A stretch of 64,000 nucleotides of DNA from an uncultured Alphaproteobacteria bacterium (GTDB lineage Bacteria; Pseudomonadota; Alphaproteobacteria; Rhodobacterales; Rhodobacteraceae). The stretch is from positions 1 to 64,000 of the forward strand of contig CAKMYZ010000009.1 of NCBI GenBank assembly GCA_929200255.1. The letters are read 5' to 3'. Of this stretch, positions 8,982 to 38,811 are shown piece after piece. Both the position numbers and the translations under genes were made by a program. Position 1 is the first letter of the stretch. The number at the start of each line of letters is the position of its first letter. The notes below the pieces were generated by a model. The model was not told where the DNA came from. It ran no database searches and saw only the letters and a program-made list of their open reading frames with translations.

Positions 8982-8982
8982 G

Positions 8983-9339
8983 ATGGAGTTACTGATTGCA
9001 TCCGCCATCGGCATCATGACGGCTGCCGGAATTTACCTTGTGCTGCGATTGCGGACCTTCCCGGTGATCTTGGGCATCTCACTACTGACATATGCTGTGA
9101 ATGTCTTTTTGTTCACATCCGGGCGGGTCACGGTCGGCGCGCCGCCGGTGTTGCGCGACGATATCACCACTTATACCGATCCCCTACCACAGGCGCTGGT
9201 GCTGACGGCCATCGTGATTTCCTTTGGGATGACCGCCGTTGTCGTGATGATCGGGCTTGGCGCGTTTCTGGGGTCTGACGATGACCATGTTGATGACCGC
9301 CCTGCCCTGCAAGATGACGGATCGGAGGGCACATCATGA
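8983..9339 (+). CDS. mrpC: Mrp/Pha antiporter subunit C
   Basis: A 118-residue NuoK-like subunit with three membrane helices (ASAIGIMTAAGIYLVLRL, VILGISLLTYAVNVFLF, LVLTAIVISFGMTAVVVMI). It carries the family signature DPLPQALVLTAIVISFG. ATG at 8983 follows an AAGGAGG site and begins one base after the mrpA stop. An upstream in-frame ATG would run into mrpA and is rejected. The tail is acidic and overlaps the start of subunit D by four bases (ATGA). Confidence 0.94.
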   Translation: MELLIASAIGIMTAAGIYLVLRLRTFPVILGISLLTYAVNVFLFTSGRVTVGAPPVLRDDITTYTDPLPQALVLTAIVISFGMTAVVVMIGLGAFLGSDDDHVDDRPALQDDGSEGTS

Positions 9340-10880: not shown

Positions 10881-10881
10881 C

Positions 10882-11382: not shown

Positions 11383-11666
11383 TACTTGCAACGCAGTTCC
11401 TGAACGCCGCGCTGGCCATCACATTTGTCTCCCTCGCTCTTGGGCAACTTATGTCGATGGTACGGCTGATTCTGGGCCCCACATCGGGCGACCGGATTCT
11501 GGCGTTGGACACGATGGTGATTAATGCGCTGGGTCTGGTCATCGTGCTGGGCATCCATCAGGGCGTACAAATCTACTTTGAGGTGGCGTTGCTGATTGCG
11601 ATGTTGGGTTTCGTGTCAACCGTCGCCATGGCCCGATTCATTTTGCGGGGGGACATCATCGAATGA
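11379..11666 (+). CDS. mrpF: Mrp/Pha antiporter subunit F
   Basis: A 95-residue three-helix membrane protein with the family block GPTSGDRILALDTMVINALGL in its middle and FVSTVAMARFILRG near the end. It overlaps both neighbours by four bases (ATGA), so the subunits should be made in fixed ratio. Confidence 0.93.
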   Translation: MILATQFLNAALAITFVSLALGQLMSMVRLILGPTSGDRILALDTMVINALGLVIVLGIHQGVQIYFEVALLIAMLGFVSTVAMARFILRGDIIE

Positions 11667-12046
11667 CCCCACAAATTATCAGCACCTATCTTGCCGGCCT
11701 GTCTTTGATCATTGGGTCAGGCTTTGTTGTGGTTGGGGTGATTGGACTGCTCAAGTTCAACGACCCCATGACCCGGCTTCATGCGCCAACAAAAGTGGGG
11801 ACGGTGGGCATCGGCATGTTGCTGGCTGCCTCAATCGTTCATTCCTACGGCATCGGAGAACCGTCCACACACGAGCTCTTGATCATGGCCTTTCTGTTTG
11901 TGACGGCACCGATATCGGCGAATTTCATCGCCAAGGTAAACATCCATCGCCGCGCCTGCGAGACGCCGCCCGCGCCACCCGAAGACGACACATGGTCAAC
12001 CCTCAACGTGCCTGAGGGAAACATTGAGGCGGACAAGGCCACGTAG
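11663..12046 (+). CDS. mrpG: Mrp/Pha antiporter subunit G
   Basis: A 127-residue membrane protein with the MrpG/PhaG signature: VVGVIGLLKFNDPMTRLHAP, then KVGTVGIG and ELLIMAFLFVTAPISANFIAK. Three membrane helices are visible. The C-terminal 30 residues are polar and proline-rich. It is the last gene of the antiporter operon; no clear terminator hairpin was found after it. Confidence 0.93.
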   Translation: MTPQIISTYLAGLSLIIGSGFVVVGVIGLLKFNDPMTRLHAPTKVGTVGIGMLLAASIVHSYGIGEPSTHELLIMAFLFVTAPISANFIAKVNIHRRACETPPAPPEDDTWSTLNVPEGNIEADKAT

Positions 12047-24690: not shown

Positions 24691-24705
24691 CAGGCCAGCG
24701 CTAGC
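24686..24705. repeat. Inverted repeat across convergent stop codons
   Basis: GCTAGC (24686-24691) and GCTAGC (24700-24705) flank an 8-base loop and include both the phnM stop and the hexosaminidase stop. The symmetry could give a short hairpin on either transcript. No T run follows, so a terminator role is doubtful. Confidence 0.25.
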
Positions 24706-26482
24706 GCAGCACCACATGCCCTTGCGGGTCCAGATCATAATGGGTCGTCAGATCCAGAAACACGCTCTGCGCTGGCGGCTGCTCTTGCCATGCCATAGCA
24801 CTCACGCCGAGCATCCGCGGCATCAGCATTGGCCAAAGCTGATGATCCTGTGTCGTGAACTCGGACCAGAAGGCGCCCTGTACACCGATGATGCGATCCA
24901 CCAAAGCCGGGTCCGGCACCGGGTCCCAGTTGACCGTATCGGCTGTATCGATAAATGCGGCCCAACTTGCCCCCCAATCATCTGGATCATCGGTATGCGC
25001 CATATCCAGATAGACATGCTGCCCAGGCGTCATCACAACATCATAACCTGCGCGCGCCGCATCAAGACCAGGGCCCTGCCCTGTCCAGCTGAACAAGATC
25101 GCGTCATGGCCGATACCGCCGCCAGCACCCTGTGCGGCTTCTTCCCATGCGGCAGGCCGTTGGCCGTTCGCCTGCACGATGGCGGCAAGCCGCGATATCG
25201 TCCAGCCTTGCAAATCCTTGGTTGTCTCCAGCCCTTCTTGCACCATCAGTGTCCGGGCCATTGGACTGCCCATCCACGTGCCTTCCGGCAATTCATCGCA
25301 TCCCAGATGCAGGTGGCCAAACGGGAAAAAATCACCCACTTCACGTGTAACCGCCTCTAAGATCTCCCAGGTCTTGGGCTGCGCAGGGTTGAGGGCATTG
25401 CCGCGATAGCCTTGCACCGATGCCTCGGCTCCGTTGTCAGCGGGATCGCGTGTTTCCGGGAATATCGTCGTGATCGCAAGCGCATGGGCGGGTGCCTCGA
25501 TCTCTGGCATCACTTCGATATTGAGCGCCTTGGCATGGGCGATGATCTGCCGCGCATCGTCCTTGGAGTAACTGCCACCCTCGATGGGTTTCCCGTTGAA
25601 CATGCCCGGCAGGGTCTGACCTTCGCCGCGAAATGCCGTCTTCTGCCACAACTCTGGCACGGAACTGATCTCAAGACGGAAGGCCTCATCATCGGCAAAG
25701 TGCCAGTGAAACCGGTTCAGTTTCAGCATTGCCATCAGATCAAGAAGCGCCAGAATTGTGGGGCGCTCATAAAAATGGCGCGCGGTATCAAGATGCTGCC
25801 CCCGCCAGCCAAAGCGAGGGGTGTCAGTGATGCGCCCCTTAGGCAAAGGCCCCTGTTGCAGCAAGGTCAGCAGCGTGATCCCGGCATAGAAGCGGCCGCC
25901 GTAAGAACCAGCCGAGATGCGCACAGCATCATCGGATATTTCAATTTCATAAGCATCTTCAGGCAGGTCAGTCGCTGTAACCAAAACAGGGTGTGTTCCG
26001 CAAAACGCCATCCCCTGCCGTTGGGCCAGTTCTGCAACCCCGTCCAGCGCTGGATCATCACACTGGAAACCATCGATCTCTAATGAGCCACCTGACGGGG
26101 TCCAACGGGTTGGTTGCGGGACAAGTGCCAACCCATCTACGGGCACAGGCTCTGCACTTGGTGGTTTGTGGCGACCCGCGGGCGTGGCCGGCAATGGAAT
26201 AATCTCGCCGTCACAGCGTAGGTAGGGGCCCAAGGGCATCCAGGCTCTGTTTGCGGGCTTGAAGTCGCCGCTGTACTTGATGACAACCTCATGTATCTGT
26301 CCCGCTTGCAGATCAGGCAGGGCAATCTCGATATAGCTTCCCAGTGATCGGATGCTGTGTCCACCGGATACGGGCGCCAACGGTGCCATGCCAGAGCAGC
26401 ACAGCACCGGCGCATGCAGGTCGCGGTCGGGCACGATGCTGCACAGCATCTGCATGCCCACGATACGGCAGGAATATTGCAT
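24701..26482 (-). CDS. Beta-N-acetylhexosaminidase, glycoside hydrolase family 20
   Basis: A 593-residue enzyme that removes terminal beta-linked GlcNAc or GalNAc. After an N-terminal domain, the family 20b fold starts near residue 145 and the catalytic barrel near 225 (RFGWRGQHLDTARHF, LNRFHWHFADDEAFRLE). The catalytic Asp-Glu pair is in HLHLGCDELPEGTW. No signal peptide is seen, so it should act in the cytoplasm on imported oligosaccharides, in keeping with the ABC importer across the divergent promoter. It begins one base after the stop of the GntR regulator and is probably in its operon. GH20 enzymes often take both GlcNAc and GalNAc, matching the downstream pathway genes. Confidence 0.92.
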   Translation of the reverse strand: MQYSCRIVGMQMLCSIVPDRDLHAPVLCCSGMAPLAPVSGGHSIRSLGSYIEIALPDLQAGQIHEVVIKYSGDFKPANRAWMPLGPYLRCDGEIIPLPATPAGRHKPPSAEPVPVDGLALVPQPTRWTPSGGSLEIDGFQCDDPALDGVAELAQRQGMAFCGTHPVLVTATDLPEDAYEIEISDDAVRISAGSYGGRFYAGITLLTLLQQGPLPKGRITDTPRFGWRGQHLDTARHFYERPTILALLDLMAMLKLNRFHWHFADDEAFRLEISSVPELWQKTAFRGEGQTLPGMFNGKPIEGGSYSKDDARQIIAHAKALNIEVMPEIEAPAHALAITTIFPETRDPADNGAEASVQGYRGNALNPAQPKTWEILEAVTREVGDFFPFGHLHLGCDELPEGTWMGSPMARTLMVQEGLETTKDLQGWTISRLAAIVQANGQRPAAWEEAAQGAGGGIGHDAILFSWTGQGPGLDAARAGYDVVMTPGQHVYLDMAHTDDPDDWGASWAAFIDTADTVNWDPVPDPALVDRIIGVQGAFWSEFTTQDHQLWPMLMPRMLGVSAMAWQEQPPAQSVFLDLTTHYDLDPQGHVVLR

Positions 26483-26483: not shown

Positions 26484-27239
26484 TTAGTCTAACCTTAGCT
26501 CGGACACGAAGTCATAGATCTCAGAACGGTAAAAACCGCTGGTGAATTCGATCGGACGTCCCGTGGCCAGATATCCGGTCCGGTCGATCTGCAGAACTGC
26601 GGCACCCTGCGCCAACCCCAGCATCTCTGCCACGGATGCAGTTGCGTTGACTGCCCTGACGCGCTGAATGGCACGCGTTGGTGCCATGTTGCGCGCACGC
26701 AGCAGATCATAAAGCGATGTGTCAACCTTATCAGGGCGTGGCAGGATATCTTCGGGCAAGGACGAATATTCCAAGGCCATCGGCACACCGTCACCGCTGC
26801 GCTGCCGGTGAATGCGGGCAACCTGATGATGCGCGGCCAGACCCAGCACGGTTGTCTCTAGCGGCGTTGGGCGGAACAGTCCTTTGAGCAGGACACGACT
26901 TGAGGACACAATACCGCGTGCCTGCAGATTCTCGGTAAATGACACCAGCGAAGACAGTGACTGCTCAAACCGTTCATTCTGCCCGCGCACGAACGACCCC
27001 GCCCCGTGCCGTTGTTCAATCATGCCTGCTGACACAAGTTCACCGATTGCCTTGCGCACAGTGACACGGCTGATCTGGGCAATTTCCGCGATCTCACGTT
27101 CGGAAGGCAGTTGATCATCAGGTGCCAACTCACCCGATGTAATCAGCCCGACAATATGGCGATACAACTGCTTGTAGCGAGGTCCCCGTCCCGTTCGAAA
27201 CCACTGGGAAGCATCAAGCTCAACAGCGAAGTCTGTCAT
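26484..27239 (-). CDS. GntR/HutC-family regulator, likely amino-sugar repressor
   Basis: A 251-residue regulator with a winged helix (PDDQLPSEREIAEIAQISRVTVRKAIGELVSAGMI, residues about 40-75) and a UTRA effector domain. The arrangement matches NagR/NagQ/DasR-type sensors of amino-sugar phosphates. A strong ribosome site (GAGGAGG) precedes its ATG. It is divergent from the sugar ABC operon and upstream of the hexosaminidase. Repeated TGGTATTA-like sites in the shared control region are its likely targets. Ligand identity is inferred from context. Confidence 0.85.
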   Translation of the reverse strand: MTDFAVELDASQWFRTGRGPRYKQLYRHIVGLITSGELAPDDQLPSEREIAEIAQISRVTVRKAIGELVSAGMIEQRHGAGSFVRGQNERFEQSLSSLVSFTENLQARGIVSSSRVLLKGLFRPTPLETTVLGLAAHHQVARIHRQRSGDGVPMALEYSSLPEDILPRPDKVDTSLYDLLRARNMAPTRAIQRVRAVNATASVAEMLGLAQGAAVLQIDRTGYLATGRPIEFTSGFYRSEIYDFVSELRLD

Positions 27240-27266
27240 TTTGCGCCTCCTCGGCCGGTATCATGA

Positions 27267-27378
27267 AATAATACCAATTTCGCAATATAATACCATCATC
27301 GGCACCAACACTCCCGGAAATACTCTTTTATTATTGACGTTTAGGCAAGTCCATAATTTTGGTATTAAACTGGTAGTA
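27267..27378. promoter_or_regulatory. Four TGGTATTA-like sites between GntR gene and sugar operon
   Basis: Two copies point left (the complement of TGGTATTATT at 27267-27276 and of TGGTATTATA at 27286-27295). Two point right (TGGTATTA at 27360-27367 and TGGTAGTA at 27371-27378), the latter pair 11 bases apart, one helical turn. Such sites resemble HutC-type amino-sugar operators (GGTAT half sites) and would let the neighbouring GntR protein control both operons. The assignment is by sequence symmetry only. Confidence 0.55.
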
Positions 27379-27443
27379 ATATTTCGCACCTGGTTTACGC
27401 TGGACAAAAGCGGTTGATTCGACGCCGCAACTCCGGGGGAAAC

Positions 27444-28382
27444 ATGGCGGAAACGTCCCAAGCAGCGAAACAGACTTTCCAGGCGCAACAAAACCGGGCG
27501 CTGCCGGAAAGTGTCTTTGCGTGGATGCTGATCGCGCCGGCGATGCTTTTCATTGCGGTTATCGTTGCCTGGCCTTTGGCCGAGACGGTGCGCCTGTCCT
27601 TCATGGAGGCTAATCTTGGCGGTGAAGAATATGTTGGCCTGGCCAACTATGCCGATCTGATGGACAGCCGGAAATTTCACCAAACGATCGTGCGCACGTT
27701 CTACTGGATGTTCCTGTCGGTTGGCCTGAAACTGGTCCTTGGTCTGATTGGTGCGACATTGTTGAACGCAGCGGTGCCGGGGCGCGGGCTATTTCGAGTG
27801 CTGGTTATGCCGCCGTGGGTTATCCCGATTGCGATTGGCTGTATCGGTTGGCTCTGGCTCTATAATGGGTACTTCGGTGTCCTGTCGGGCACGATGATGC
27901 AGCTTGGCATCACGGATGGACCGTTTGAATTTCTCGCGCACAAGCAATCGGCATTCTACTCTGCCGTTGTCACAGACGTCTGGGTGGGAACACCGATGGT
28001 GACGTTGTTCTTCTTGGCAGCGATGCAGGGTGTTCCGAAAGACCTGTATGAAGCGGCCTATGTCGACGGCGCGAGCCGCTGGTATCGCTTCCGCCGTATC
28101 ACAATCCCACAGATCATGCCGGTGATCGTGTCGATGTCCCTGCTTTCTGCAATCTTCACCTTCAACTCATTCGAGATCATCTGGATCTTGACCGAAGGTG
28201 GACCACGCAGTGCAACAACGACCCTGATTGTGGATACCTACAAGACGGCCATCAGCAACTTCAAATTCGGCGAAGGGTCGGCGCGTGCCGTGGTCATCGT
28301 GATCCTGTTGGGCACATTCAGCCTGATCTATCTGTTCTTCCTCAACAAGGTGAACAAATACTACGAAAGTGGCAAGAAATGA
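27444..28382 (+). CDS. Sugar ABC transporter permease (MalF type)
   Basis: A 312-residue inner-membrane permease with six helices, the first being WMLIAPAMLFIAVIVAWPLAE. The EAA loop is EAAYVDGASRWYRFRRITIP. ATG at 27444 follows GGGGGAA; an upstream ATG at 27414 lacks a ribosome site. First gene of the amino-sugar operon; its stop overlaps the second permease by four bases. Confidence 0.93.
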   Translation: MAETSQAAKQTFQAQQNRALPESVFAWMLIAPAMLFIAVIVAWPLAETVRLSFMEANLGGEEYVGLANYADLMDSRKFHQTIVRTFYWMFLSVGLKLVLGLIGATLLNAAVPGRGLFRVLVMPPWVIPIAIGCIGWLWLYNGYFGVLSGTMMQLGITDGPFEFLAHKQSAFYSAVVTDVWVGTPMVTLFFLAAMQGVPKDLYEAAYVDGASRWYRFRRITIPQIMPVIVSMSLLSAIFTFNSFEIIWILTEGGPRSATTTLIVDTYKTAISNFKFGEGSARAVVIVILLGTFSLIYLFFLNKVNKYYESGKK

Positions 28383-29221
28383 TGGACCGTTACACAAAGC
28401 TGCAAATGGTCGGCATCTATGCCGCAATCACGATCTTCCTGATCTTCATCCTGCTGCCGTTCTTTGAGATGTTCATGGCGTCACTACGCCCGCTCGAACA
28501 TCTGTTCCGCAGCCCCTACCAGTTCTGGTCAGATGATTTTTCCTTTCAGGCCTATCGCGACATGTGGGTCACCGTACCCCTGCTGGGTCGCTATATCCTG
28601 AACTCTATCTTCATCGCATCGATGGTGACAGGGATCACGATGGTTTTTGTCGTACCTGCCGCCTATGCCTACGCCCGGCTTCAGTTCCCGTTCAAGAACC
28701 TCACGCTTGGCATCTTTCTGGGCGTGAATATGTTCACCGGTGCAGTCCTGTTGATCCCACTCTACCGTGTCCTGCGCACCATGGGCCTGCTGAATACCTA
28801 TTGGGCCATGATTGTTCCTGGTGTGGCCTTTCTGATCCCCACGGGTATCTGGCTGCTGCGGTCTTACCTTGAAAAGATCCCGCGCGAGCTGGAAGAAGCC
28901 GCTTTCGTGGATGGCGCCAGCCGCATGTATACCCTGCGCCGCGTTGTGCTGCCATTGGCCGTGCCCGGTCTGATCGTTGTCGGTGTCGCGGTGTTTATCG
29001 GCGCCTATGCCCAACAGTTTCTCTTTGCGATCACGTTCAACCAACAACGTGAGCTGCAACCCCTGCCAGCCGGACTGTTCGAATTTATCGGCTATCAGGA
29101 CGTCACCTGGAACGAGATGATGGCTGCTGCCTTGGTCGGCGTGCTGCCGGTCATGGTCATCTTCTTGTTCCTGCAAAAGTATCTCGTCGCGGGACTGACC
29201 GCTGGCGCGGTTAAAGAATAA
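28379..29221 (+). CDS. Sugar ABC transporter permease (MalG type)
   Basis: A 280-residue permease of the MalG class with six helices and the EAA loop EEAAFVDGASRMYTLRRVVLP. It begins ATGATG at the stop of the first permease. Together the two make the channel of the importer whose binding protein and ATPase follow. Confidence 0.93.
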   Translation: MMDRYTKLQMVGIYAAITIFLIFILLPFFEMFMASLRPLEHLFRSPYQFWSDDFSFQAYRDMWVTVPLLGRYILNSIFIASMVTGITMVFVVPAAYAYARLQFPFKNLTLGIFLGVNMFTGAVLLIPLYRVLRTMGLLNTYWAMIVPGVAFLIPTGIWLLRSYLEKIPRELEEAAFVDGASRMYTLRRVVLPLAVPGLIVVGVAVFIGAYAQQFLFAITFNQQRELQPLPAGLFEFIGYQDVTWNEMMAAALVGVLPVMVIFLFLQKYLVAGLTAGAVKE

Positions 29222-29248
29222 TCAATCAGTCAACTAGGGAGACTAAAT

Positions 29249-30460
29249 ATGAAACGAATGAAAATGACTTTGGGGGCGGTGTTGCTGTCCAGCGGAGCCT
29301 CAATGGCCGTGGCTGACAGCCATGCAACAGAACTGCACTTTATCATGTGTGGCGGCGAGGTGCGTGATGCAGATCAGGCTGTTGTCGATCAGTTCATCGC
29401 GGACAATGAAGGCGTGACCGTTAATCTAGAAGCCGTGCCATGGGGCACATGTCAGGACAAATCCCTGACATTGGCAGCAGCTGGCGATCCACCATCCATC
29501 GCTTACATGGGCAGTCGCACATTACGTCAACTGGCCAACAACGACCTGATCGTCCCGGCCCAGATCGGTGATGATGTGATGTATCAGGACGGTGTGCTGA
29601 ACACGGTGACCATCGAAGGTCAGGAGTGGGGCTATCCGCACGCATTCTCGACCAAGGCGCTTTATATCAACTGCGATATCGTTGAAGCTTCCGGTCAGGA
29701 ATGCGTTGCACCTACAACATGGGACGACATGTATGCTATGGCGCAGGGCGTTGTGGACAACACAGACAGCGCTGGTGTTGGACTTGCAGGCAAAGACTTT
29801 GACAACACGATGCACCAGTTCCTGAACTACCTCTATTCCAACGGTGGTGCCGTAATCGATCCGGCGACGGGCGAAAACATGCTCGACAGCCAGCAGACAC
29901 GCGAGACGCTGGAGTTCTACGGCAGGCTTGTTGATGTGGCGCAGGAGGGCCCAACAGCCTGGGAACGTGATCAACTTAAGGATCTGTTCAACGACGGTCA
30001 GATCGCGATGTATGTTCAGGGCCCATGGGGTTATGGCCAGCACAACGAAGACATCAATCAATTGGTTGCGCCCGTCCCTGCCGGCCCATCCGGTGAAAGC
30101 GGTACAATCCTGATCACTGACAGCATCGTTGTGTTCAAAGGTTCTGGCCATGAAGAGCTGGCACATGATCTGGCCCAGCGCATCACATCCGGCGACAGCC
30201 AGTATGACCTGGACAGCAGCTGGGGCCTGACACCGATCCTTGATTATGCTGCAATGGGCAAAACCGATCTCTACTATGAGAGCGGCATCTGGCCAAACTT
30301 CACAGCAACAATTTCGACAGGCGGCCCAGAGCCAATCGTCGAAGACTTCAAGTCGCTGCAGTCGGTCTTCACCAACATGGTGCAGGGTATCATCCTCAAG
30401 GATGACACTGTTGACAACCTGGTGACCATCGCCGGGGAAGAACTCGACGACGCACTTTAA
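29249..30460 (+). CDS. Sugar ABC transporter substrate-binding protein
   Basis: A 403-residue periplasmic binding protein of the family 1 type. A signal peptide (MKRMKMTLGAVLLSSGASMAVA) is followed by the mature domain starting DSHATELHF. Typical blocks are AAGDPPSIAYMGSRTLRQLA and LFNDGQIAMYVQGPWGYG. The mature protein has several cysteines (CGG, GTCQDK, NCDIV, QECVAP), which could form disulfides. The ligand is unknown; the operon suggests GlcNAc-, GalNAc- or their oligosaccharides. A hairpin after the gene may raise its expression over the ATPase. Confidence 0.9.
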   Translation: MKRMKMTLGAVLLSSGASMAVADSHATELHFIMCGGEVRDADQAVVDQFIADNEGVTVNLEAVPWGTCQDKSLTLAAAGDPPSIAYMGSRTLRQLANNDLIVPAQIGDDVMYQDGVLNTVTIEGQEWGYPHAFSTKALYINCDIVEASGQECVAPTTWDDMYAMAQGVVDNTDSAGVGLAGKDFDNTMHQFLNYLYSNGGAVIDPATGENMLDSQQTRETLEFYGRLVDVAQEGPTAWERDQLKDLFNDGQIAMYVQGPWGYGQHNEDINQLVAPVPAGPSGESGTILITDSIVVFKGSGHEELAHDLAQRITSGDSQYDLDSSWGLTPILDYAAMGKTDLYYESGIWPNFTATISTGGPEPIVEDFKSLQSVFTNMVQGIILKDDTVDNLVTIAGEELDDAL

Positions 30461-30475
30461 GGGGTTCTCCCTGTT

Positions 30476-30501
30476 CCGGGTGGCGGTCCGCTGCCGCCCG
30501 G
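30476..30501 (+). terminator. Intercistronic hairpin after the binding-protein gene
   Basis: An 11-bp stem with two G-U pairs, CCGGGTGGCGG (30476-30486) and CTGCCGCCCGG (30491-30501), closes a TCCG loop and is followed by a pyrimidine stretch (TTCTTCTCT). It sits between the binding protein and ATPase genes and probably reduces or stabilises rather than fully ends transcription. Confidence 0.55.
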
Positions 30502-30537
30502 TTCTTCTCTCAGAATTTCGAACGGAAGCACGGCATC

Positions 30538-31638
30538 ATGGCGACTCTTGATCTCCTCTCCATCAGCAAATCATTCGGTGCCGCCAAGGTGCTGCATGAC
30601 ATCAGCCTCGCGATTGAGGACAAGGAGTTTGTTGTTTTCGTTGGGCCCTCTGGCTGCGGCAAGTCGACATTGCTGCGGATCATCGCAGGGCTGGAAGAAG
30701 CAACAGCCGGTCAGGTCATGATTGGCGGCAATGACGTCAGCGCCGCGCACCCGGTGGATCGCGGCATCTCGATGGTGTTTCAATCCTACGCGCTTTATCC
30801 CCACCTGAGCGTTTATGAAAATATCGCCTTTCCGCTGCGTGTGCAGAAGATGGATCAAGCCAGCTTGAACGAAAGCGTGCATCGCGCCGCCGATATCCTG
30901 CAACTCACTGACAAGCTACAACTCAAGCCGGGTCAACTTTCAGGTGGTCAACGTCAGCGTGTTGCCATCGGTCGCTCTATCGTGCGCAACCCCAAGGTTT
31001 TCCTTTTTGATGAACCGCTCTCGAACCTCGACGCGGCTTTGCGTGGCGACATGCGCGTTGAACTCAGCCAGTTGCACCGCAACCTTGACGCCACAATGGT
31101 CTATGTGACCCATGATCAGGTGGAAGCCATGACCATGGCCGACCGTATCGTGGTCCTGAACGGTGGCCGGGTTGAACAATTTGGTACGCCGATGGAGCTT
31201 TACCACCACCCCAAGACTAAATTCGTGGCCTCCTTCATCGGCCAACCGAATATGAACCTCGTCCCAGCCACTGTTGAGGGCGCCGATGCGAATAGCATCA
31301 AGGTTGCCCTGTCCGGCGGGCATCAGATGTCACTGCCCGTCGATGGCAGCACCGTGAACAAAGGCGACAAGGTTGAAGTGGGCATTCGCCCTGAACATGT
31401 GGCGCTTGGCAGCAATGGGTTGGACGTCGCTGTCAACGTGCTTGAACGCCTCGGCGGTGTCTCCATCACCTATGGCACCGTTGGCGACGGCACCCGCTTC
31501 TGCGCCTCGCTGCCCGGTGATGCCCGGATTACCGAAGGCGGCGCCATCAGCCTTGGCGTCGCACCAGAGGATTGCCACGTCTTTGATGCCGCAGGCGATG
31601 TACTGCAGCGCAAGTCAGCACCGGAGTTGGTAGAATGA
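30538..31638 (+). CDS. Sugar ABC transporter ATP-binding protein (UgpC/MsmK type)
   Basis: A 366-residue ATPase with Walker A GPSGCGKSTLLR, signature LSGGQRQRVAIGRS, Walker B VFLFDEPLSNLD and a C-terminal OB-type regulatory domain (from about residue 240; GIRPEHVAL motif). It overlaps the dehydrogenase start by four bases. It energises the two permeases just upstream. Confidence 0.94.
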   Translation: MATLDLLSISKSFGAAKVLHDISLAIEDKEFVVFVGPSGCGKSTLLRIIAGLEEATAGQVMIGGNDVSAAHPVDRGISMVFQSYALYPHLSVYENIAFPLRVQKMDQASLNESVHRAADILQLTDKLQLKPGQLSGGQRQRVAIGRSIVRNPKVFLFDEPLSNLDAALRGDMRVELSQLHRNLDATMVYVTHDQVEAMTMADRIVVLNGGRVEQFGTPMELYHHPKTKFVASFIGQPNMNLVPATVEGADANSIKVALSGGHQMSLPVDGSTVNKGDKVEVGIRPEHVALGSNGLDVAVNVLERLGGVSITYGTVGDGTRFCASLPGDARITEGGAISLGVAPEDCHVFDAAGDVLQRKSAPELVE

Positions 31639-32795
31639 AGGTTGTCACGGCCGGGATCGGCCTGAGGGCCGGGCATGTCCTTTCAATTCTGAAAGAGGCG
31701 ATGCCCGAGGTCGCATTTGTTGGCTACTACGACCCACAACCCACACATCTGGAGATGATCGGAACTGATACCCCCCGCTTTGATGACGTTGAAGGAATGC
31801 TGGCCGCGACCACGCCGGATCTCTTCTTTGTCGGTTCGCCCAACAGCTTTCACCTTGAACATATCAAGATTGGCCTGAAGGCAGGTGTTCGCATCTTTAC
31901 GGAAAAGCCAGTTGTAACAACCAAAACGGACACGATGGAGCTTGCCGCCCTTTTGGCAGAGCATGGCACCAATAGCGTGATGGTCGGGCTTGTCTTGCGA
32001 TATTCGCAGCATATGGTTGATCTGCGCGCGGTGCTGGATCAATTGGGCCCCGTCGTATCGCTGGAAGCCAACGAACATATCGGGCCTTATCATGGGGCAT
32101 TTTTCATGCGCGACTGGCGGCGCATGATCAAATGGTCGGGCGGCTTCATGCTCGAAAAATGCTGCCATGACATTGACATCTACAACATGGTCACCGGCTC
32201 CCGACCCAACAAAGTGGCCAGCTTTGGCGGGCGGAAATCGTTCGTGCCAGAATTCTCGCCGACCTCGAACACCGAAAACGAAATCATGCACCGCAAGAAA
32301 AACGAAATCATGCACCGCAAGAAAAGTGTGTGGGAAAGCATCGACGATCCCTTCCGCTCTGACGGCGATATCATCGACCACCAGACAGCGATCCTGCATT
32401 ATGAAAACGGGGCCTCACTGGCATTCCACACCAACCTCAACGTGCCGGATGAACATCGCCGCTTTTGCGTGATGTGTGCTTTGGGCATGGCCGAAGGTGA
32501 TTTCGTGCGCGGGCATCTGAAGGTCACAGCGCGAGACGGCACTGTGCTGGCCGATCACGACTACACACAGATGGATGCCGCGCGTGCCTCAGCGCACTAT
32601 GGCGCAGATCACATGATGGTGGATGACATTGTGGCTTTTTTGACTGGCAAGACCGACAGCCTCCCAGTGGGCGTTGTGGATGCGTTGGAAGCCGGGCTTG
32701 CCGCCATGGCAATAGACGAGGCGCGGATCACCGGTCAGATCGTCGATCTGACCGACACTTGGGCCGAATTTGACAGTTGCGGACTAAGAGCATGA
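31635..32795 (+). CDS. Gfo/Idh/MocA-family oxidoreductase with internal 8-residue duplication
   Basis: A 386-residue NAD(P)-dependent sugar dehydrogenase-like protein. The N-terminal Rossmann part ends with the conserved EKP (IFTEKPVVTT, about residue 95). The substrate domain has GGFMLEKCCHDIDIYNMVTG with the usual histidine-aspartate pair. Residues NEIMHRKK occur twice in a row because of a perfect 24-bp tandem repeat (32277-32324), probably lying in a surface loop. Its role in amino-sugar use is not clear: an oxidative or an NAD-assisted hydrolytic step on the sugar is possible. It overlaps its neighbours by four bases on both sides. Confidence 0.8.
   Translation: MKVVTAGIGLRAGHVLSILKEAMPEVAFVGYYDPQPTHLEMIGTDTPRFDDVEGMLAATTPDLFFVGSPNSFHLEHIKIGLKAGVRIFTEKPVVTTKTDTMELAALLAEHGTNSVMVGLVLRYSQHMVDLRAVLDQLGPVVSLEANEHIGPYHGAFFMRDWRRMIKWSGGFMLEKCCHDIDIYNMVTGSRPNKVASFGGRKSFVPEFSPTSNTENEIMHRKKNEIMHRKKSVWESIDDPFRSDGDIIDHQTAILHYENGASLAFHTNLNVPDEHRRFCVMCALGMAEGDFVRGHLKVTARDGTVLADHDYTQMDAARASAHYGADHMMVDDIVAFLTGKTDSLPVGVVDALEAGLAAMAIDEARITGQIVDLTDTWAEFDSCGLRA
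32277..32324 (+). repeat. Perfect 24-bp tandem duplication within a CDS
   Basis: Two identical copies (32277-32300 and 32301-32324) encode NEIMHRKK twice and keep the frame open. The identity of both copies suggests a recent event or an assembly artefact rather than an ancient repeat. Confidence 0.97.
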
Positions 32796-33796
32796 TACGC
32801 GCAGACAAACACCCCGGCCGCCTGATGGCGTCTGAATCCGCAGAGGCATTGGGCGTCTTTTGCAGGGCCGCCCGACAACCCGTTGACGGGGACGCTATCG
32901 AAACACCAAAAGCAATCTATACGATTGCGCGCGGATCATCCGATGCGGCGGCCAATATCCTGTCGTATGAATTCATGCGCGAATTGCGCGTGCCGATGAC
33001 CTCACTGCCGCCATCGGTTTTCTCACTCGGCAAAGGTGTTAGGCTTGATGGGGCGGTGGCTCTTGTCATCAGTCAATCAGGTGCAAGCGATGATCTGGTC
33101 CGCTCTGCCAAGGGCGCGCAGGAGGCCGGGGCGCAGGTGCTGGCCATCACAAATCAGCCCGACAGCCCAGTTGAGGCGCAGGCGGGTATGACGGTTCCCA
33201 TTGATGCAGGCGATGAACTCGCCGTCCCAGCCACAAAGACCGTGATCGGTTCGGTGGCCGCAGGAATGGCGCTGCTTTCAGCCATGAAACCTGCCTACCG
33301 CGCAAAGGCGATGGGCGCTGCCGAACTGCTGGCCAATTGCAACCCGCAGCATCCGCAAGCGGCGTCCTTGCAGTCCGCATTGCTGCGCGCCCGTCATGTC
33401 TATGTCATCGGGCGCGACACCGGATATGGCGCCGCCCATGAGGTTGCATTGAAGCTCAAGGAATGCTGCGCCATCCACGCCGAGGCCTATTCAAGCTCCG
33501 AAGTCTTGCATGGGCCGCTGCAACTGGCCACCAACCCACTGATGGTGCTGATCCTTGATACCGGCGATGCGGTCATACAAGACAGCCTTGACCAAGCCGA
33601 AGCGCGGTTCCGTGGCACCGATTGTGACGTGCATAGGATCAGCCCAAATGATCTGGACTTCTACGGCCTTGTTCCCGGCGCATCTGCGGCCCTCTTACTG
33701 GCTGTGATGTACCCGATTATCCTGAACACCGCACTTGCACTGGGCCTTGACCCGGATGCTCCGCAGACGCTCTCAAAAGTGACACAAACGACATGA
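32792..33796 (+). CDS. SIS-domain glucosamine-6-phosphate deaminase, NagB-II type
   Basis: A 334-residue protein with two sugar-isomerase domains, like the isomerase half of GlmS. The first carries IARGSSDAAANILSYEF and SQSGASDDLV, the second YVIGRDTGYGAAHEVALKLKECC, SSSEVLHGP. No glutaminase domain is present. This fits NagB-II, which converts glucosamine-6-phosphate to fructose-6-phosphate and ammonia. ATG at 32792 overlaps the upstream stop, and the stop overlaps agaS by four bases. A true NagB is not seen here, which supports the call. Confidence 0.85.
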   Translation: MIRADKHPGRLMASESAEALGVFCRAARQPVDGDAIETPKAIYTIARGSSDAAANILSYEFMRELRVPMTSLPPSVFSLGKGVRLDGAVALVISQSGASDDLVRSAKGAQEAGAQVLAITNQPDSPVEAQAGMTVPIDAGDELAVPATKTVIGSVAAGMALLSAMKPAYRAKAMGAAELLANCNPQHPQAASLQSALLRARHVYVIGRDTGYGAAHEVALKLKECCAIHAEAYSSSEVLHGPLQLATNPLMVLILDTGDAVIQDSLDQAEARFRGTDCDVHRISPNDLDFYGLVPGASAALLLAVMYPIILNTALALGLDPDAPQTLSKVTQTT

Positions 33797-34845
33797 CACA
33801 AGCACATTCAAAATGGGCAACCTGGCAAGAGCTGCAGCGCCAGCCAGAGATTTGGCGGCATTGGGGCGCAACCATGGACGTAGCAGGCCTGCGCGCATGG
33901 ATCGCTGAGCAGGACTATGACGAAGTCTGGTTCTGCGGCGCGGGCACAAGTGCCTATATCGGTGATATCATAGCAGCGTCACTGAAAGGCACGCGCTCAG
34001 TACCCACAACGGATATTGTGGCCAACCCAAAGCATGTTCTGTCTGGCGCGCGCCCTCTGGTGGTCAGCTTTGGCCGTTCAGGCAACAGCACCGAAACCAT
34101 CGGCACGCTTGATGCGCTGGATAACTTTGCGCCAACGGCACCACGCCTGAACATCACGTGTAACAAGGACAGCGCGCTGGCCACACGGACATCCGCAGCA
34201 CCAACACAGGTCATTGTGCTGCCCGACGCGACACATGACGCGGGCTTTGCAATGACGTCCAGCTTCTCAACCATGTTGCTGACCGCTCTGGCGCTTTTTG
34301 ACGCGCCCTGCGACGTGCCCGGCCGCCTTTCCATGCTTGCGGATCAGCTCGAAGCGCTTTTGCCCCGGTTCGAGGGCCTATCCAGACCCGACCGTGCCGT
34401 TTATGTTGGCGCTGGTCCTTTGACCTTTGCCGCGCGTGAGGCCGCCCTGAAAGTGATGGAACTCTCTGCCGGACAGATACCGGCGCTATGGGACAGTTCT
34501 CTGGGCTTTCGGCACGGTCCCAAATCGTTTGTCACATCCGATACACACATCACCATATTCACCAGCCCCGATCACCCCACGCACGACTACGACATGGATC
34601 TGGCGCAGGAACTGCGCACCCAATTCCCGCTGGCAACCACGCAGACCATTGGACCGGGCGGAGATATTGATCTTCCCATGCCCTTTGGCGCTGTTTGGGC
34701 CGCACAGCTTTGTGTGGCCGCAGCACAGGTGAGTGGTGTTCAGTGGTCGGATGCATTGGGTCTGAATGTCGATGATCCCTTCAGCGGGCAAAACACGCTG
34801 AGCCGGGTTGTTTCTGGCGTTAAACTCTATCCGGCGGTGGCATGA
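33793..34845 (+). CDS. agaS: AgaS-type galactosamine-6-phosphate deaminase/isomerase
   Basis: A 350-residue double SIS protein clearly closer to E. coli AgaS than to the preceding NagB-II. Shared blocks include FCGAGTSAYIGDIIA, VPTTDIVANP, VVSFGRSGNSTETI, ITCNKDSAL, THDAGFAMTSSFSTM and GFRHGPKSFV. AgaS deaminates galactosamine-6-phosphate to tagatose-6-phosphate. Finding both a GlcN- and a GalN-directed SIS enzyme side by side implies use of both amino sugars. It overlaps the kinase gene by four bases. Confidence 0.9.
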   Translation: MTQAHSKWATWQELQRQPEIWRHWGATMDVAGLRAWIAEQDYDEVWFCGAGTSAYIGDIIAASLKGTRSVPTTDIVANPKHVLSGARPLVVSFGRSGNSTETIGTLDALDNFAPTAPRLNITCNKDSALATRTSAAPTQVIVLPDATHDAGFAMTSSFSTMLLTALALFDAPCDVPGRLSMLADQLEALLPRFEGLSRPDRAVYVGAGPLTFAAREAALKVMELSAGQIPALWDSSLGFRHGPKSFVTSDTHITIFTSPDHPTHDYDMDLAQELRTQFPLATTQTIGPGGDIDLPMPFGAVWAAQLCVAAAQVSGVQWSDALGLNVDDPFSGQNTLSRVVSGVKLYPAVA

Positions 34846-35747
34846 CGGCGGCAGGCATCGATATTGGTGGCACCAAGATTGAGGTGCAGCTTTTTGACGC
34901 TGACTGGTCAGTAGTCGGGCGGCAGCGGGTTGCGACGCCCGTAAACTATGATGACCTTGTTTCAGCTGTTGTGGCGCAAATCAAATGGGCCGAAAATCGG
35001 GTCAACGGTCCGCTCGCAGTCGGGGTTGGTGCCGCCGGTCTTGTCAATCCGCGCACAGGCCTCGCCCTGACGGCAAACCTGCCAGCCACCAATCACCCCT
35101 TCCCCACTGATATCGCCAAAGGCGCGGATCGTCAGATCACTTATGTAAACGATTGCCGCGCGCTGGCGCTGTCAGAGGCCGTTTTTGGCGCCGGTCAAGG
35201 CAAACGGACGGTCATGTCACTCATCCTTGGTACCGGTGTCGGCGGCGGGATCGCGGTTGATCAGGCCATCTTGCAAGGCCCTACGGCCATGGGCGGAGAG
35301 TTTGGGCACACCGCCGCCGCCGCCCACGTCGTGAACGCCCATGACCTGCCACTATGGCAATGTGGCTGCGGGCGAACCGGGTGCATCGAGACCTACATCG
35401 CCGGGCCGGGCCTTGCGCGATTGGCTGAACACGTGACAGGTCAAGACATGACCCCAGAAGGGATCGCGGCCCAGCGCCACGGCAAAATGGCACAGGTCTG
35501 GGCGATCTGGTGCACTTTCGTGGGTGAGTTCATTCATACACTGACACTGACAGCGGACCCTGATGTGATTGTGCTTGGCGGCGGGCTCAGCAAGATCGAC
35601 GGAATCACAGATGACATGATGCAGGCCGCCAAAGCAGCACAGATTGGCGATTTTGGCGTACCGCAGATCGTCTTGGCCAAGGGCGGCGATGCCAGCGGCG
35701 CGCGTGGTGCGGCCTATGCCGCGTGGCAGGCGCAATCTGATGCCTGA
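34842..35747 (+). CDS. ROK-family N-acetylhexosamine kinase
   Basis: A 301-residue sugar kinase. The N-terminal phosphate loop is GIDIGGTKIEV, the adenosine motif is LGTGVGGGIAVD, and the ROK zinc cluster is CGCGRTGCIETYI (about residues 172-184, normal Cys set). The GEFGH histidine motif is also intact. By context it should phosphorylate imported GlcNAc and perhaps GalNAc. Its end overlaps the GatZ-family gene by eight bases. Confidence 0.88.
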   Translation: MTAAGIDIGGTKIEVQLFDADWSVVGRQRVATPVNYDDLVSAVVAQIKWAENRVNGPLAVGVGAAGLVNPRTGLALTANLPATNHPFPTDIAKGADRQITYVNDCRALALSEAVFGAGQGKRTVMSLILGTGVGGGIAVDQAILQGPTAMGGEFGHTAAAAHVVNAHDLPLWQCGCGRTGCIETYIAGPGLARLAEHVTGQDMTPEGIAAQRHGKMAQVWAIWCTFVGEFIHTLTLTADPDVIVLGGGLSKIDGITDDMMQAAKAAQIGDFGVPQIVLAKGGDASGARGAAYAAWQAQSDA

Positions 35748-36969
35748 TGTCTTACGCGATATCATCCGGCGTAACCGCGCAGGGTGTGCCATAGCTATTC
35801 CATCCGTATGCTCTGCCCATCCCGACGTTCTGCGCGCGTCCTTGGGCCTGGCCCAACGGCTTGGCCGGCAGGTTGTGATCGAGGCCACGTCCAATCAGGT
35901 CAATCAGGATGGCGGCTATACCGGCATGACCCCACGCGGGTTTGTCGAGTTTGTCTATGGCATCGCGGACATGGCGGCAGTGGATTGTGATCTGATCATC
36001 TTTGGGGGCGATCATCTGGGCCCGCAGGCCTGGCGGTCACAGGATGTTGAACTCGCAATGGAAAAAGCCGAAACCATGGTGCGCGACTATGTGGCCGCTG
36101 GCTTTGGCAAAATCCATCTGGATTGTTCGGAAGGCTGTGCAGGGGAACCCGCCCAGCTTGGTGATGCACAGACCGCCGAAAGATCGGCAAAACTGGCGGG
36201 TATCTGTGCGGAGGTTGCCGGTGATCTGCTCTTCGTCGTTGGGACCGAAGTGCCGCCACCCGGTGGCGCACGCGCGGATGAAGATGGCGATATTCCCCCA
36301 ACTGATCCTGCGGCAGCCCGCGCCACGCTTGATGCACATGATCAGGCATTTGGCGACATGGCACCACTGATTGGTGGCCTTGTGGTCCAGCCGGGCGTCG
36401 AATTCAGCCCGACGGCCGTGCACCACATGCCACTTGATCGCGACCCTGGATTGCGCGACAGCATCGCAGACCGCCCCGGCGTCTGCCTTGAGGCGCATTC
36501 AACCGACTACCAAGACCCTGCCGTTTTTCCCAGACTGGCAGAGCTTGGGTTTGCCTTCCAGAAGGTCGGCCCTGCCCTGACGTTCGCCTACCGCAAGGCG
36601 CTTTATGGGTTGGACCAGCTGCGCGCGGACAGGGGCGCACTGCAATCCGCAATGGAGGCGGTGATGTTGGCTGACCCTTCAAAATGGCAGGGGCACTATA
36701 CCGGGTCCGATGAGGCGCTTTATCAACAGCGCCATTTCGGACTGGCCGATCGCATCCGCTATTATTGGCCGACGGCGCAGGCCCAATCAGCGGTGGGTGA
36801 CCTGTTGTCATCGTTCGACGCGCCAATTACGGACAATGCATTGAAAAACGTTTTTGATAGTGACGTGCTGGATCGGGCGGCAAACGGGTCTGGCGATCAA
36901 TTGACCCGCCTGATCGACGCGCACATCAGCCTCGCGCTGGAACCCTATTTCTTTGAGGACGCCACATGA
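35740..36969 (+). CDS. GatZ/KbaZ-family protein, likely tagatose-6-phosphate 4-epimerase
   Basis: A 409-residue member of the GatZ/KbaZ family, with SVCSAHPDVLRASL, IEATSNQVNQDGGYTGMTP, IIFGGDHLGPQAW, KIHLDCSEGCAGEP, VVGTEVPPPGG and EAHSTDYQ. In enterics these proteins are the non-catalytic partner of GatY/KbaY aldolases. No GatY partner or tagatose-6-phosphate kinase is in the cluster. A stand-alone family member in Agrobacterium has been shown to be a D-tagatose-6-phosphate 4-epimerase, and that activity would neatly turn the AgaS product into fructose-6-phosphate. The start at 35740 (MPDVLRDII) is chosen by operon overlap. Family is certain; reaction is inferred. Confidence 0.82.
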   Translation: MPDVLRDIIRRNRAGCAIAIPSVCSAHPDVLRASLGLAQRLGRQVVIEATSNQVNQDGGYTGMTPRGFVEFVYGIADMAAVDCDLIIFGGDHLGPQAWRSQDVELAMEKAETMVRDYVAAGFGKIHLDCSEGCAGEPAQLGDAQTAERSAKLAGICAEVAGDLLFVVGTEVPPPGGARADEDGDIPPTDPAAARATLDAHDQAFGDMAPLIGGLVVQPGVEFSPTAVHHMPLDRDPGLRDSIADRPGVCLEAHSTDYQDPAVFPRLAELGFAFQKVGPALTFAYRKALYGLDQLRADRGALQSAMEAVMLADPSKWQGHYTGSDEALYQQRHFGLADRIRYYWPTAQAQSAVGDLLSSFDAPITDNALKNVFDSDVLDRAANGSGDQLTRLIDAHISLALEPYFFEDAT

Positions 36970-38105
36970 CTGAACATTGGATTTGTCCCGATCGCATGTT
37001 TGACGGCACCGAGGTTGTGTCCGGCATGTCGCTTCGCATTCAGGGAGGCAAGATCACCGCGTTTTCCACTGAAGCGAAGGACGGCGTCCGGGTTCAAGGA
37101 TGCCTCTCGCCGGGGTTTGTTGATTTGCAGGTCAATGGTGGTGGCGGTATCCTTTTAAATGCAGCGCCAACACGCGCCACCATGGCAAAAATTGCAACGG
37201 CGCATCGAAAATTCGGCACGGTGGCAATCCTGCCGACTGTGATCACAGATCACCCGGACGTGCTTGACCAAGCCGCCGATGCGATCCTTGCCGCGATGGG
37301 CGACGTCGGGATCATTGGCCTGCATATCGAAGGGCCACATATCTCGCCGGCGCGGCGGGGCACACATGAGGCGGCCTTTGTGCGCCCCATGGACGACCGC
37401 ACGATGGCGGTGGTTGCACGGCTTCGCGCTGCTGATGTGCCGGTGATGATCACACTGGCGCCTGAGGCTGCCACGGCCGCGCAGATCGCAACGCTGGCCG
37501 ACCAAGGTGCTGTTGTTTCAATCGGGCATACCGATGGCACTGCGGAACAAATTGAAGGCGCCATCGCGGCCGGGGTCTCCTGCGGGACCCATCTGTTTAA
37601 CGCGATGCCCACTCTGCAAAGCCGCGCGCCCGGTGCGGTTGGCGCGATCCTGAATGCCGGTGTGCATTTTGGCATCATCTGCGACGGGCATCACGTCGAC
37701 TATCGCATGATCCAACTGGCGCTCCGCGCCGCGGCGAAACCTGACCGCGCATTCCTGGTCTCCGATGCTATGGCCACGATTGGAGGGGCTGATCATTTTG
37801 ATCTTTACGGGCGCCCTGTGCATCTCAAAGACGGTCGGCTGATCAATACAGAAGGTAATCTGGCCGGTGCCCATGTCACCCAAACCGAAGGTGTGCAGCG
37901 TCTTGTGGCGCATGTGGGCGTGCCTTTGGACAAAGCCCTGCGCATGGCTGTCACCATCCCCGCCAAGCTGATGGGGCAACCCCAGCTGTCCGAGGTAGTC
38001 AACCGCGATATATCCGACCTGATCATGTTGTCGGATGACCTGAGCGTATCAGCTCTGGCCGGACATCTCACCGGGTCGCATGGGGCGCTCAATGCCGCCG
38101 AGTAA
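36966..38105 (+). CDS. nagA: N-acetylglucosamine-6-phosphate deacetylase
   Basis: A 379-residue amidohydrolase that removes the acetyl group from GlcNAc-6-phosphate. Family blocks are SPGFVDLQVNGGGG, GLHIEGPHISPARRGTHE, SIGHTDGTAEQI, THLFNAM, ICDGHHVDYRM and the catalytic LVSDAMATIGG. Only one deacetylase gene is present, so it may also serve GalNAc-6-phosphate. It overlaps the GatZ-family gene by four bases. Confidence 0.94.
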   Translation: MTEHWICPDRMFDGTEVVSGMSLRIQGGKITAFSTEAKDGVRVQGCLSPGFVDLQVNGGGGILLNAAPTRATMAKIATAHRKFGTVAILPTVITDHPDVLDQAADAILAAMGDVGIIGLHIEGPHISPARRGTHEAAFVRPMDDRTMAVVARLRAADVPVMITLAPEAATAAQIATLADQGAVVSIGHTDGTAEQIEGAIAAGVSCGTHLFNAMPTLQSRAPGAVGAILNAGVHFGIICDGHHVDYRMIQLALRAAAKPDRAFLVSDAMATIGGADHFDLYGRPVHLKDGRLINTEGNLAGAHVTQTEGVQRLVAHVGVPLDKALRMAVTIPAKLMGQPQLSEVVNRDISDLIMLSDDLSVSALAGHLTGSHGALNAAE

Positions 38106-38811
38106 GCCCATGCTGCTTGAGGTTTGTGTGGAATCTGCCGCTGCTCTTGCCATTTGTCAGGGTGTCGCTGACCGGATCGAACTTTGCAGCGGGCTCGATA
38201 TTGGGGGCCTGACACCCAGTCGCGGGCTTATGCAGCAGGCCAAGGTGTCTGGTCTGGAAACTCATGTCCTGATCCGGCCACAGGTTGGGGATTTCGCTTT
38301 TGACCAAAACGCGCTTGAAATGGCGATTGCGGACATCAAACACACAAAAGCAGTTGGGCTGCACGGGGTCGTCATCGGGGCAACGGCAGACGGGGCCTTG
38401 GATCAGGACGCATTGCAAAAGATGTTGCAAGCCACAGATGGCCTGACCAAAACACTGCACCGCGCCTTTGACGTCGTGGAGGATCAATTCGCAGCGCTGG
38501 ACACGGCTATTGCCATGGGATTTGACCGCATCCTGACCTCTGGTGGGGCCACGACAGCCTACGCCGGGCGCGCGCAACTTGCCGAACTCAATACATATGC
38601 CAATGGCCGGATTGAGATTATGGCCGGCTCTGGCGTCAACAGCGCAAACATTGCCGAAATCGTGGCTGATACCGGCCTCACATCGTTCCATGCATCCTGC
38701 ACATCCAAACGCACAATACAGGGAAAGATTGCCGATTTGGGGTTTGGGCAGTATCGCCGCACAATCGACAAGGCCGAATTGCTGGCACTGAAGACCGCGC
38801 TCAGCGACTGA
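38092..38811 (+). CDS. cutC: CutC-family TIM-barrel protein
   Basis: A 239-residue CutC homologue: LLEVCVESAAALAICQGVADRIELCSGL in two parts, GGLTPSRGLM, HVLIRPQVGDF, LHRAFDVVED and ILTSGGATTAYAG are all typical. ATG 38092 (MPPSKPMLLEV) overlaps nagA by 14 bases; ATG 38110 (MLLEVCVES) is an alternative. The family was named for copper tolerance, but that role is doubtful. Here it ends a sugar operon, which hints at a carbohydrate role. A copper regulator and pump follow on the other strand, so a copper link cannot be excluded. Confidence 0.88.
   Translation: MPPSKPMLLEVCVESAAALAICQGVADRIELCSGLDIGGLTPSRGLMQQAKVSGLETHVLIRPQVGDFAFDQNALEMAIADIKHTKAVGLHGVVIGATADGALDQDALQKMLQATDGLTKTLHRAFDVVEDQFAALDTAIAMGFDRILTSGGATTAYAGRAQLAELNTYANGRIEIMAGSGVNSANIAEIVADTGLTSFHASCTSKRTIQGKIADLGFGQYRRTIDKAELLALKTALSD

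Follow-up and report, generated by a model that had tools for sequence, protein, structure and literature searches.

The Shewanella-type pathway for N-acetylglucosamine (GlcNAc) consists of a kinase, NagA and NagB-II and ends at fructose-6-phosphate (F6P). A galactitol/tagatose pathway of Agrobacterium and Sinorhizobium, associated with the names Wichelecki (2015) and Kohlmeier (2019), reportedly combines a tagatose kinase with a GatZ protein that acts as a tagatose-6-phosphate (T6P) epimerase. Here these systems are compared with an operon found in a stretch of 64,000 nucleotides of alphaproteobacterial DNA, hereafter the window (G000:C9:1-64000), from an assembly of 3.61 Mb and 99.93% completeness. 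The operon probably serves the use of both GlcNAc and N-acetylgalactosamine (GalNAc), and it contains a gene for a GatZ/KbaZ-family protein, which is the main subject of this study. In E. coli, tagatose formation depends on gatZ, and gatZ or kbaZ together with the phosphatase gene hxpA restores it (PMC11907403; this and the other articles are cited for those parts of their text that were available). The authors of that paper inferred an epimerisation of F6P to T6P by GatZ/KbaZ; they also cited the work on Agrobacterium and Sinorhizobium and a 4-epimerase activity that the aldolase FbaA shows in vitro. PMC12405394 mentions a tagatose kinase and, next to it, a T6P 4-epimerase, both of them predicted. 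According to a 2017 survey, only a single GalNAc pathway had been described, one that leads to triose phosphates (PMC5583593); in a 2025 review, GatZ is given the role of an aldolase subunit (PMC12118421).

The operon was read from the open reading frames of the window. Its genes lie on the + strand in the order ABC transporter (27414-31638), Gfo/Idh/MocA, NagB-II-like, AgaS-like, ROK, GatZ, NagA and CutC-family, with head-to-tail overlaps of the gene ends from the ATPase gene onwards. The ATG of the GatZ gene (35740-36969), for example, is at 35740, within the 3' end of the ROK gene (34842-35747). Genes for a GntR-type regulator and a GH20 hexosaminidase are on the opposite strand and divergent from the operon. 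Because the same gene order was found in many other genomes, the arrangement is not due to chance. The original prediction, made from the sequence of the window, had described a NagB-II-like and an AgaS-like protein, a ROK kinase, a GatZ/KbaZ-family protein and one nagA in one overlapping operon, without a T6P kinase and GatY/KbaY. All of these genes were found on the + strand at 32792-38105, and the two absences were confirmed among the genes of the operon. The extent of the unit had to be revised, as it is bigger and also includes the ABC transporter, Gfo/Idh/MocA and CutC genes and the divergent GntR and GH20 genes.

NagA, the N-acetylhexosamine-6-phosphate deacetylase (36966-38105), passed the NCBIfam equivalog cut-off (TIGR00221, 234.1 versus 225.65 bits). 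The best match of the NagB-II-like SIS deaminase (32792-33796) was NF046059 with 198.8 bits, under the curated cut-off of 430, and its nearest solved chains were 8eol, named glucosamine-6-phosphate deaminase, and 3hba. The AgaS-like SIS deaminase/isomerase (33793-34845) is 38% identical to E. coli AgaS. It matched TIGR02815 best, with 230.8 bits under a curated cut-off of 529.2, and its nearest solved chain was 3c3j, a putative tagatose-6-phosphate isomerase. The ROK-family kinase, probably acting on N-acetylhexosamines, reached 203.7 bits on NF009835 (cut-off 380) and 199.2 bits on PF00480. GatZ scored 415 bits on PF08013, far over the Pfam cut-off of 26.7, which makes it a member of the GatZ/KbaZ family; on the accessory-subunit model TIGR02810 it stayed under the equivalog cut-off (393.9 of 568.8 bits). 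Its solved relatives are 3txv (5.4e-90) and 2fiq (1.5e-79). We take 3txv to be from Sinorhizobium, and 2fiq and 3c3j to be from E. coli. AgaS, NagB-II and GatZ are clear relatives of their families, though below the curated cut-offs.

All results of this study considered, it is highly probable that the operon encodes a GlcNAc/GalNAc pathway with a stand-alone GatZ as T6P 4-epimerase, both branches joining at F6P. The ABC transporter would take up GlcNAc and GalNAc, one ROK kinase would phosphorylate both sugars and one NagA would deacetylate both. NagB-II would convert glucosamine-6-phosphate to F6P by deamination, and AgaS would convert galactosamine-6-phosphate to T6P. GatZ alone would then epimerise T6P at C4 to F6P by a metal-dependent retro-aldol/aldol reaction, a mechanism adopted from modelling published for E. 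coli GatZ. The two branches would meet at F6P and proceed through phosphoglucose isomerase; this enzyme is encoded in the genome, and F6P should therefore be usable. We infer every catalytic activity, as well as the dual specificity for GlcNAc and GalNAc, from sequence relationships.

The co-occurrence of AgaS and GatZ was analyzed in 295 genomes from the family (294 genera by count), using PF08013, an AgaS profile (E<=1e-30) and a NagB-II profile (E<=1e-60) as queries. PF08013 was present in 51 of the 295 genomes, and the AgaS profile matched 29, 26 of them above 479 bits. All 29 AgaS genomes were among the 51 with GatZ, that is, AgaS never occurred without GatZ in the 295 genomes (hypergeometric probability 1.4e-26, with shared ancestry left uncorrected). 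The NagB-II profile matched 46 genomes, 23 with close and 23 with distant relatives. Both AgaS and GatZ were found in 20 of the 23 genomes with a close relative, and neither in the other three. Among the 23 genomes with a distant relative, AgaS was present in one, and GatZ in five of the remaining 22. GatZ therefore tracks AgaS more than it tracks general amino-sugar use. Two other explanations were rejected: the presence of GatZ in just five of these 22 AgaS-negative genomes spoke against the co-occurrence marking general amino-sugar users, and seven unlinked cases spoke against mere linkage. Outside the family, the question of AgaS without GatZ was put to plasmids (6 records).

In the seven unlinked cases (7 of the 29 AgaS genomes) AgaS, ROK and NagA are encoded in the operon, and a GatZ gene is missing between those for ROK and NagA. 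One is from the window's own genus (G294), and the others are G013, G049, G163, G050, G165 and G080. Each of these genomes encodes exactly one GatZ, located elsewhere; at a base rate of 29 in 273, the probability of finding it in seven of seven is 7.5e-8. Genome G056 appeared unlinked by its coordinates, but its contig ends in the operon, and it was counted as linked. Within the query set, the unlinked GatZ gene adjoins a tagatose kinase at loci L074 and L077 and a weaker AgaS relative at L069. Neither was found beside it at L075, L086, L092 and L093; at L086 it adjoins sugar-transporter genes. In the GatZ tree, the L074 and L077 proteins fell into a set with 99% support whose 12 rows are tagatose-kinase-linked, and the L075 protein into a set of 13 with the same support, the other rows of which are labelled tagatose-kinase-linked. 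The proteins of L086, L092 and L093 belong to a 99%-supported set of eight, the other five carrying this label, and L069 stands alone. Because tagatose-kinase-linked groups of GatZ fill in for the missing operon copy, T6P is suggested as the common metabolite. Most simply, the AgaS product would be one that several GatZ lineages can remove, and for the tagatose-kinase-linked GatZ this product is T6P.

An eighth case was a Neorhizobium plasmid carrying AgaS-ROK-NagA with no GatZ there and with two GatZ places on the same replicon. The mirror image was seen at L218, an operon with GntR, ABC, MocA, NagB-II, ROK and NagA that is without exactly AgaS and GatZ. L217 is also without these two, but its contig is 4.5 kb; at L219 NagB-II is present and the other genes are missing. 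The reverse of L218 was observed in Pseudovibrio japonicus (L129), where a GntR-type operon has AgaS and GatZ and no NagB-II match. At L093 (7824-10856) the lone GatZ gene is located directly 3' of a phosphoglucomutase-like gene, named by reading of its translation.

GatZ trees were calculated with sequences shorter than 350 or 380 residues, or with stops, excluded; support is given as SH-aLRT values from a quick method without bootstrap. The first tree contained 129 of 130 rows. The second contained 124, after the degenerate L065 and the copies or near-copies L066, L113, L139, L147, L165 and L176 had been dropped and two rows added. The GatZ of the window is one of 47 rows that form a set with 99% support; 43 of the 47 are AgaS-linked without GatY, three are unlabelled and one (L114) has a tagatose-kinase label that comes from a weak match. 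A separate set of 19 rows with 99% support consists of all 16 GatY-linked rows together with L138, L160 and L166. The GatZ of S. meliloti belongs to a set of nine with 99% support, in which eight rows are tagatose-kinase-linked; a tagatose-kinase-like gene lies beside GatZ in S. meliloti itself and in 43 of the 130 labelled rows. A phylogenetic comparison with the Agrobacterium epimerase and enteric GatZ/KbaZ had been proposed with the original prediction. In the present tree, which included the S. meliloti protein, the GatZ of the window is in a group of its own, apart from the GatY-linked proteins and not especially close to the Sinorhizobium type. Its nearest named relative among the matches listed is from Octadecabacter dasysiphoniae, with 73% identity. 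The seven predicted metal-site/catalytic residues (E. coli C20, E44, D87, H88, E171, H257 and K279) are all present in the GatZ of the window and in 129 of the 130 aligned rows. The exception, L065, has lost four of the seven. This locus (8731-11711, in G206) is a decaying operon, with a NagB-II match interrupted by stops and with short AgaS and ROK pieces.

E. coli GatZ/KbaZ has been described as an aldolase subunit (PMC10101011, PMC3668189). By analogy, T6P could be phosphorylated by a kinase encoded elsewhere and the bisphosphate cleaved by a class II aldolase, with GatZ as an accessory subunit. The genome of the window does contain genes for six kinases of the PfkB family and for one class II aldolase, and a search of the whole genome for GatY/KbaY and a T6P kinase had been proposed with the original prediction. 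For aldolases, the search covered class II, using PF01116 and the GatY/KbaY model TIGR01858 (cut-off 443.55 bits). The operon copy is the single PF08013 gene of the genome. The sole PF01116 aldolase (C1:122268) sits in an inositol cluster and reached 148 of the 443.55 bits on TIGR01858; its location ruled it out as GatY. The genes of this cluster were named from an IolC match just under its cut-off and from reading of the translations. No GatY/KbaY over the TIGR01858 cut-off was found in the genome. The six kinases matched ribokinase, IolC, fructokinase and other models, and none of them passed a curated cut-off, LacC, FruK and PfkB included. The genome was also without a match over the cut-off of TIGR03168 (FruK/LacC subfamily) and without PfkA. 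With no GatY and no clear T6P kinase in the genome, the search came out in favour of the original prediction.

GatY over the TIGR01858 cut-off was found in none of the 51 GatZ genomes, 35 of which had a weaker match and 16 no match at E<=0.001. Nine of the 29 AgaS genomes were without any TIGR01858 match at this threshold. TIGR03168 over its cut-off was missing in nine AgaS genomes, including that of the window. Four genomes were without both, and PfkA was found in none of the 29. A second sample consisted of 50 genomes reached through named GatZ loci (50 of 80 loci used). Eight of these passed TIGR01858, all of them enteric or Vibrio-type with KbaY/GatY in the locus.

Several results weigh against a stand-alone epimerase. 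The weaker matches in 35 of the 51 GatZ genomes are class II aldolases that fall short of the GatY cut-off, and a FruK/LacC-subfamily kinase (TIGR03168) exceeded its cut-off in 20 of the 29 AgaS genomes; the bisphosphate route may therefore operate in some genomes. Class II aldolases of intermediate score were found in four AgaS-locus genomes (G307, 291 bits; G313, 217 bits; G308 and G328, 209 bits each). These aldolases lie elsewhere, the AgaS-GatZ loci themselves showing no KbaY/GatY, but their presence makes the bisphosphate route possible for these four genomes. For a Streptomyces locus carrying a KbaY-like gene the score was just 210 bits, so the TIGR01858 cut-off may miss distant GatY. 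Three of the 29 AgaS matches are imperfect, that of G206 being partial, that of G269 lying in two frames and that of G093 being weak (135 bits); all three were retained in the count. The AgaS, NagB-II, ROK and GatZ proteins of the operon all score under NCBIfam curated cut-offs. The operator-like motif of the operon was not found upstream of the seven unlinked GatZ genes, where the best score per locus did not reach the 95% point obtained from 200 random stretches of that locus, and co-regulation of these genes is therefore not supported. The E. coli evidence was obtained in vivo, and there tagatose formation was not restored when gatZ was expressed without hxpA (PMC11907403). Finally, close to the predicted active site, all AgaS-linked GatZ rows compared (44/44) carry Q at the position of E. 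coli N92 and E at that of M127, which sets them apart from the other two groups. Catalysis may therefore differ in AgaS-linked GatZ.

For the genome of the window, phosphorylation of T6P and cleavage by the inositol-cluster aldolase is nevertheless considered improbable, given the low score and the location of that aldolase, six kinases all under the curated cut-offs, the absence of PfkA, and the nine AgaS genomes that have no match to the GatY/KbaY model, four of them also without a FruK/LacC kinase over the cut-off. The deviating residues at the two sites are also of interest for another explanation, in which the cluster serves GlcNAc and an amino sugar other than GalNAc, the substrate of GatZ being another phosphoketose, or in which GatZ runs mainly towards T6P. 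A Gfo/Idh/MocA protein of unassigned role in many clusters and the pairing of weaker AgaS relatives with GatZ in Rhizobium and Gluconobacter speak in its favour. It is quite improbable, considering that the nearest solved AgaS relative, 3c3j, is a putative tagatose-6-phosphate isomerase, that T6P is the reported product of E. coli AgaS (PMC3668189), and that tagatose-kinase-linked GatZ stands in where the operon has none. That GatZ is itself the T6P kinase, with an unrecognised class I aldolase cleaving the bisphosphate, is suggested by the name tagatose 6-phosphate kinase given to PDB entries 3txv and 2fiq, and is extremely improbable because PMC11907403 ties the family to class II aldolases, models a metal site whose residues are kept here, and reports in vivo results in which epimerisation was supported by gatZ and kbaZ of E. 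coli; the aldolase search behind this judgement covered class II.

The stand-alone epimerase, leading from GalNAc through T6P to F6P as first proposed from the sequence of the window, is thus supported by genome content, phylogeny, co-occurrence and unlinked GatZ stand-ins. The proposal had added that a described pathway of exactly this form was not known to its author. In agreement with this, no GalNAc route with AgaS and a GatZ epimerase was found in the open literature, judged by title and opening of the abstract among the matches listed; subscription papers, notably a 2012 proteobacterial GalNAc study, could contain it. The components are known; what appears to be new within the literature searched is their combination leading from GalNAc to F6P, together with the co-occurrence and the provision of GatZ by genes at other places in the genome. 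A wider view can be offered tentatively, as one that is possible but falls somewhat short of probable. T6P 4-epimerase might be the general GalNAc exit in Alphaproteobacteria, with several GatZ lineages serving AgaS by conversion of T6P to F6P, whether their genes lie within the operon or at any other site of the genome. The GatY-linked aldolase role might then be confined to one clade (enteric, Vibrio), and epimerisation could be the real reaction there too.

If the proposed pathway is correct, many Alphaproteobacteria would break down GalNAc without T6P phosphorylation or a tagatose-bisphosphate aldolase and would join GlcNAc breakdown at F6P, a point of entry suited to genomes without PfkA. 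Proteins that carry the annotation 'non-catalytic subunit', such as the GatZ of a Paracoccus plasmid locus, would be enzymes. The old question of GatZ/KbaZ function would become testable in organisms without recognisable GatY.

The distribution of locus types was surveyed in the 80 best matches listed from one scan. Among these, Rhodobacterales and Pseudovibrio had the GntR-type operon. A cluster of fewer genes, AgaR-AgaS-ROK-GatZ-NagA, was found in Shinella, Salipiger, Maritimibacter, Tropicimonas and Paracoccus (L221 being an annotated example), and in Devosia among the matches listed as far as a short contig extends. NagB-II and GatY were not found by the queries in these clusters, among the matches listed and in L221, and the shorter cluster looks like a GalNAc-only form of the proposed pathway. 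In other listed loci GatZ is paired with a weaker AgaS (Rhizobium, Gluconobacter) or with a tagatose kinase. GatY/KbaY-type loci among the matches listed were from enteric bacteria, Vibrio and Photobacterium, plus Streptomyces with a more distant KbaY. Loci of Salinicola, Nitrospirillum, Boudabousia and Novosphingobium have KbaZ and AgaS, with no KbaY match within the available stretch. An AgaR-like gene with a weak AgaS relative (about 30%) and GatZ was observed at L123, L124, L132, L145, L147, L150, L167 and L171, in Rhizobium, Gluconobacter and others; perhaps these loci represent the same exit for another sugar.

Upstream of the operon, the GH20 beta-N-acetylhexosaminidase gene (24701-26482, - strand; PF00728, 288.6 bits) adjoins the operon in many relatives, and its product may supply GlcNAc and/or GalNAc. 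The divergent GntR/HutC-type regulator (26484-27239, - strand) was recognised by NCBIfam GntR-type matches and is conserved in position. Between the regulator and the transporter genes (27240-27413), GGTAT/ATACC half-sites were observed that are conserved in GntR-transporter intergenic regions, often as TTTGGTATTATAnTGGTAG. GGTAT occurred 74 times in 30 such regions, versus 7.6 expected, and the element is likely the operator of the GntR-type regulator. The transporter genes, all on the + strand, encode a MalF-type permease (27414-28382), a MalG-type permease (28379-29221), a solute-binding protein (29249-30460; PF01547, 105.5 bits) and an MsmK/UgpC-type ATPase (30538-31638); the permeases and the ATPase are syntenic open reading frames in relatives, and their types were assigned by reading of the sequence.

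The Gfo/Idh/MocA-family protein (31635-32795, + strand; PF01408, 52.9 bits) is frequent in such operons, recurring in both GntR-type and AgaR-type clusters, and its best solved relatives are 8qc2 and 8qc3. One idea, which we put forward as an assumption, is that it is an NAD-dependent glycosidase. Its gene contains a direct repeat at 32280-32325, with a spacing of 24 bases, which adds eight in-frame residues. In an alignment of 14 sequences, these residues were missing in the 13 relatives, one of which has other residues there. The CutC-family gene (38080-38811, + strand; PF03932, 208.5 bits) is a recurrent neighbour that accompanies many clusters in either orientation (also L094, L118, L126 and L221), which suggests a role in amino-sugar use and not in copper handling.

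Compared with described systems, the operon shares with the Agrobacterium/Sinorhizobium galactitol/tagatose pathway a GatZ-family protein that, in the accounts available of that pathway, acts on T6P without GatY. There T6P is formed from tagatose by a kinase, whereas in the window it would be formed from galactosamine-6-phosphate by AgaS, and the tagatose-kinase-linked GatZ of that pathway type lies outside the GatZ set of the window. The Shewanella-type GlcNAc pathway is matched by the ROK-type kinase and the NagA and NagB-II relatives of the window, to which the operon adds AgaS and GatZ; L218 represents the version without them. The E. coli C4 epimerases GatZ and KbaZ belong to the same Pfam family and have the same predicted catalytic residues, but they yield tagatose from glucose and are not presented as a GalNAc route in the available part of that work (PMC11907403). 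The E. coli aga/kba pathway (AgaS, KbaY, KbaZ; L096) also combines an AgaS-type enzyme with a GatZ/KbaZ protein and leads GalNAc through T6P (PMC3668189). The E. coli cluster has KbaY and PTS genes, whereas the operon of the window is without GatY/KbaY and has an ABC transporter, a ROK kinase and NagB-II.

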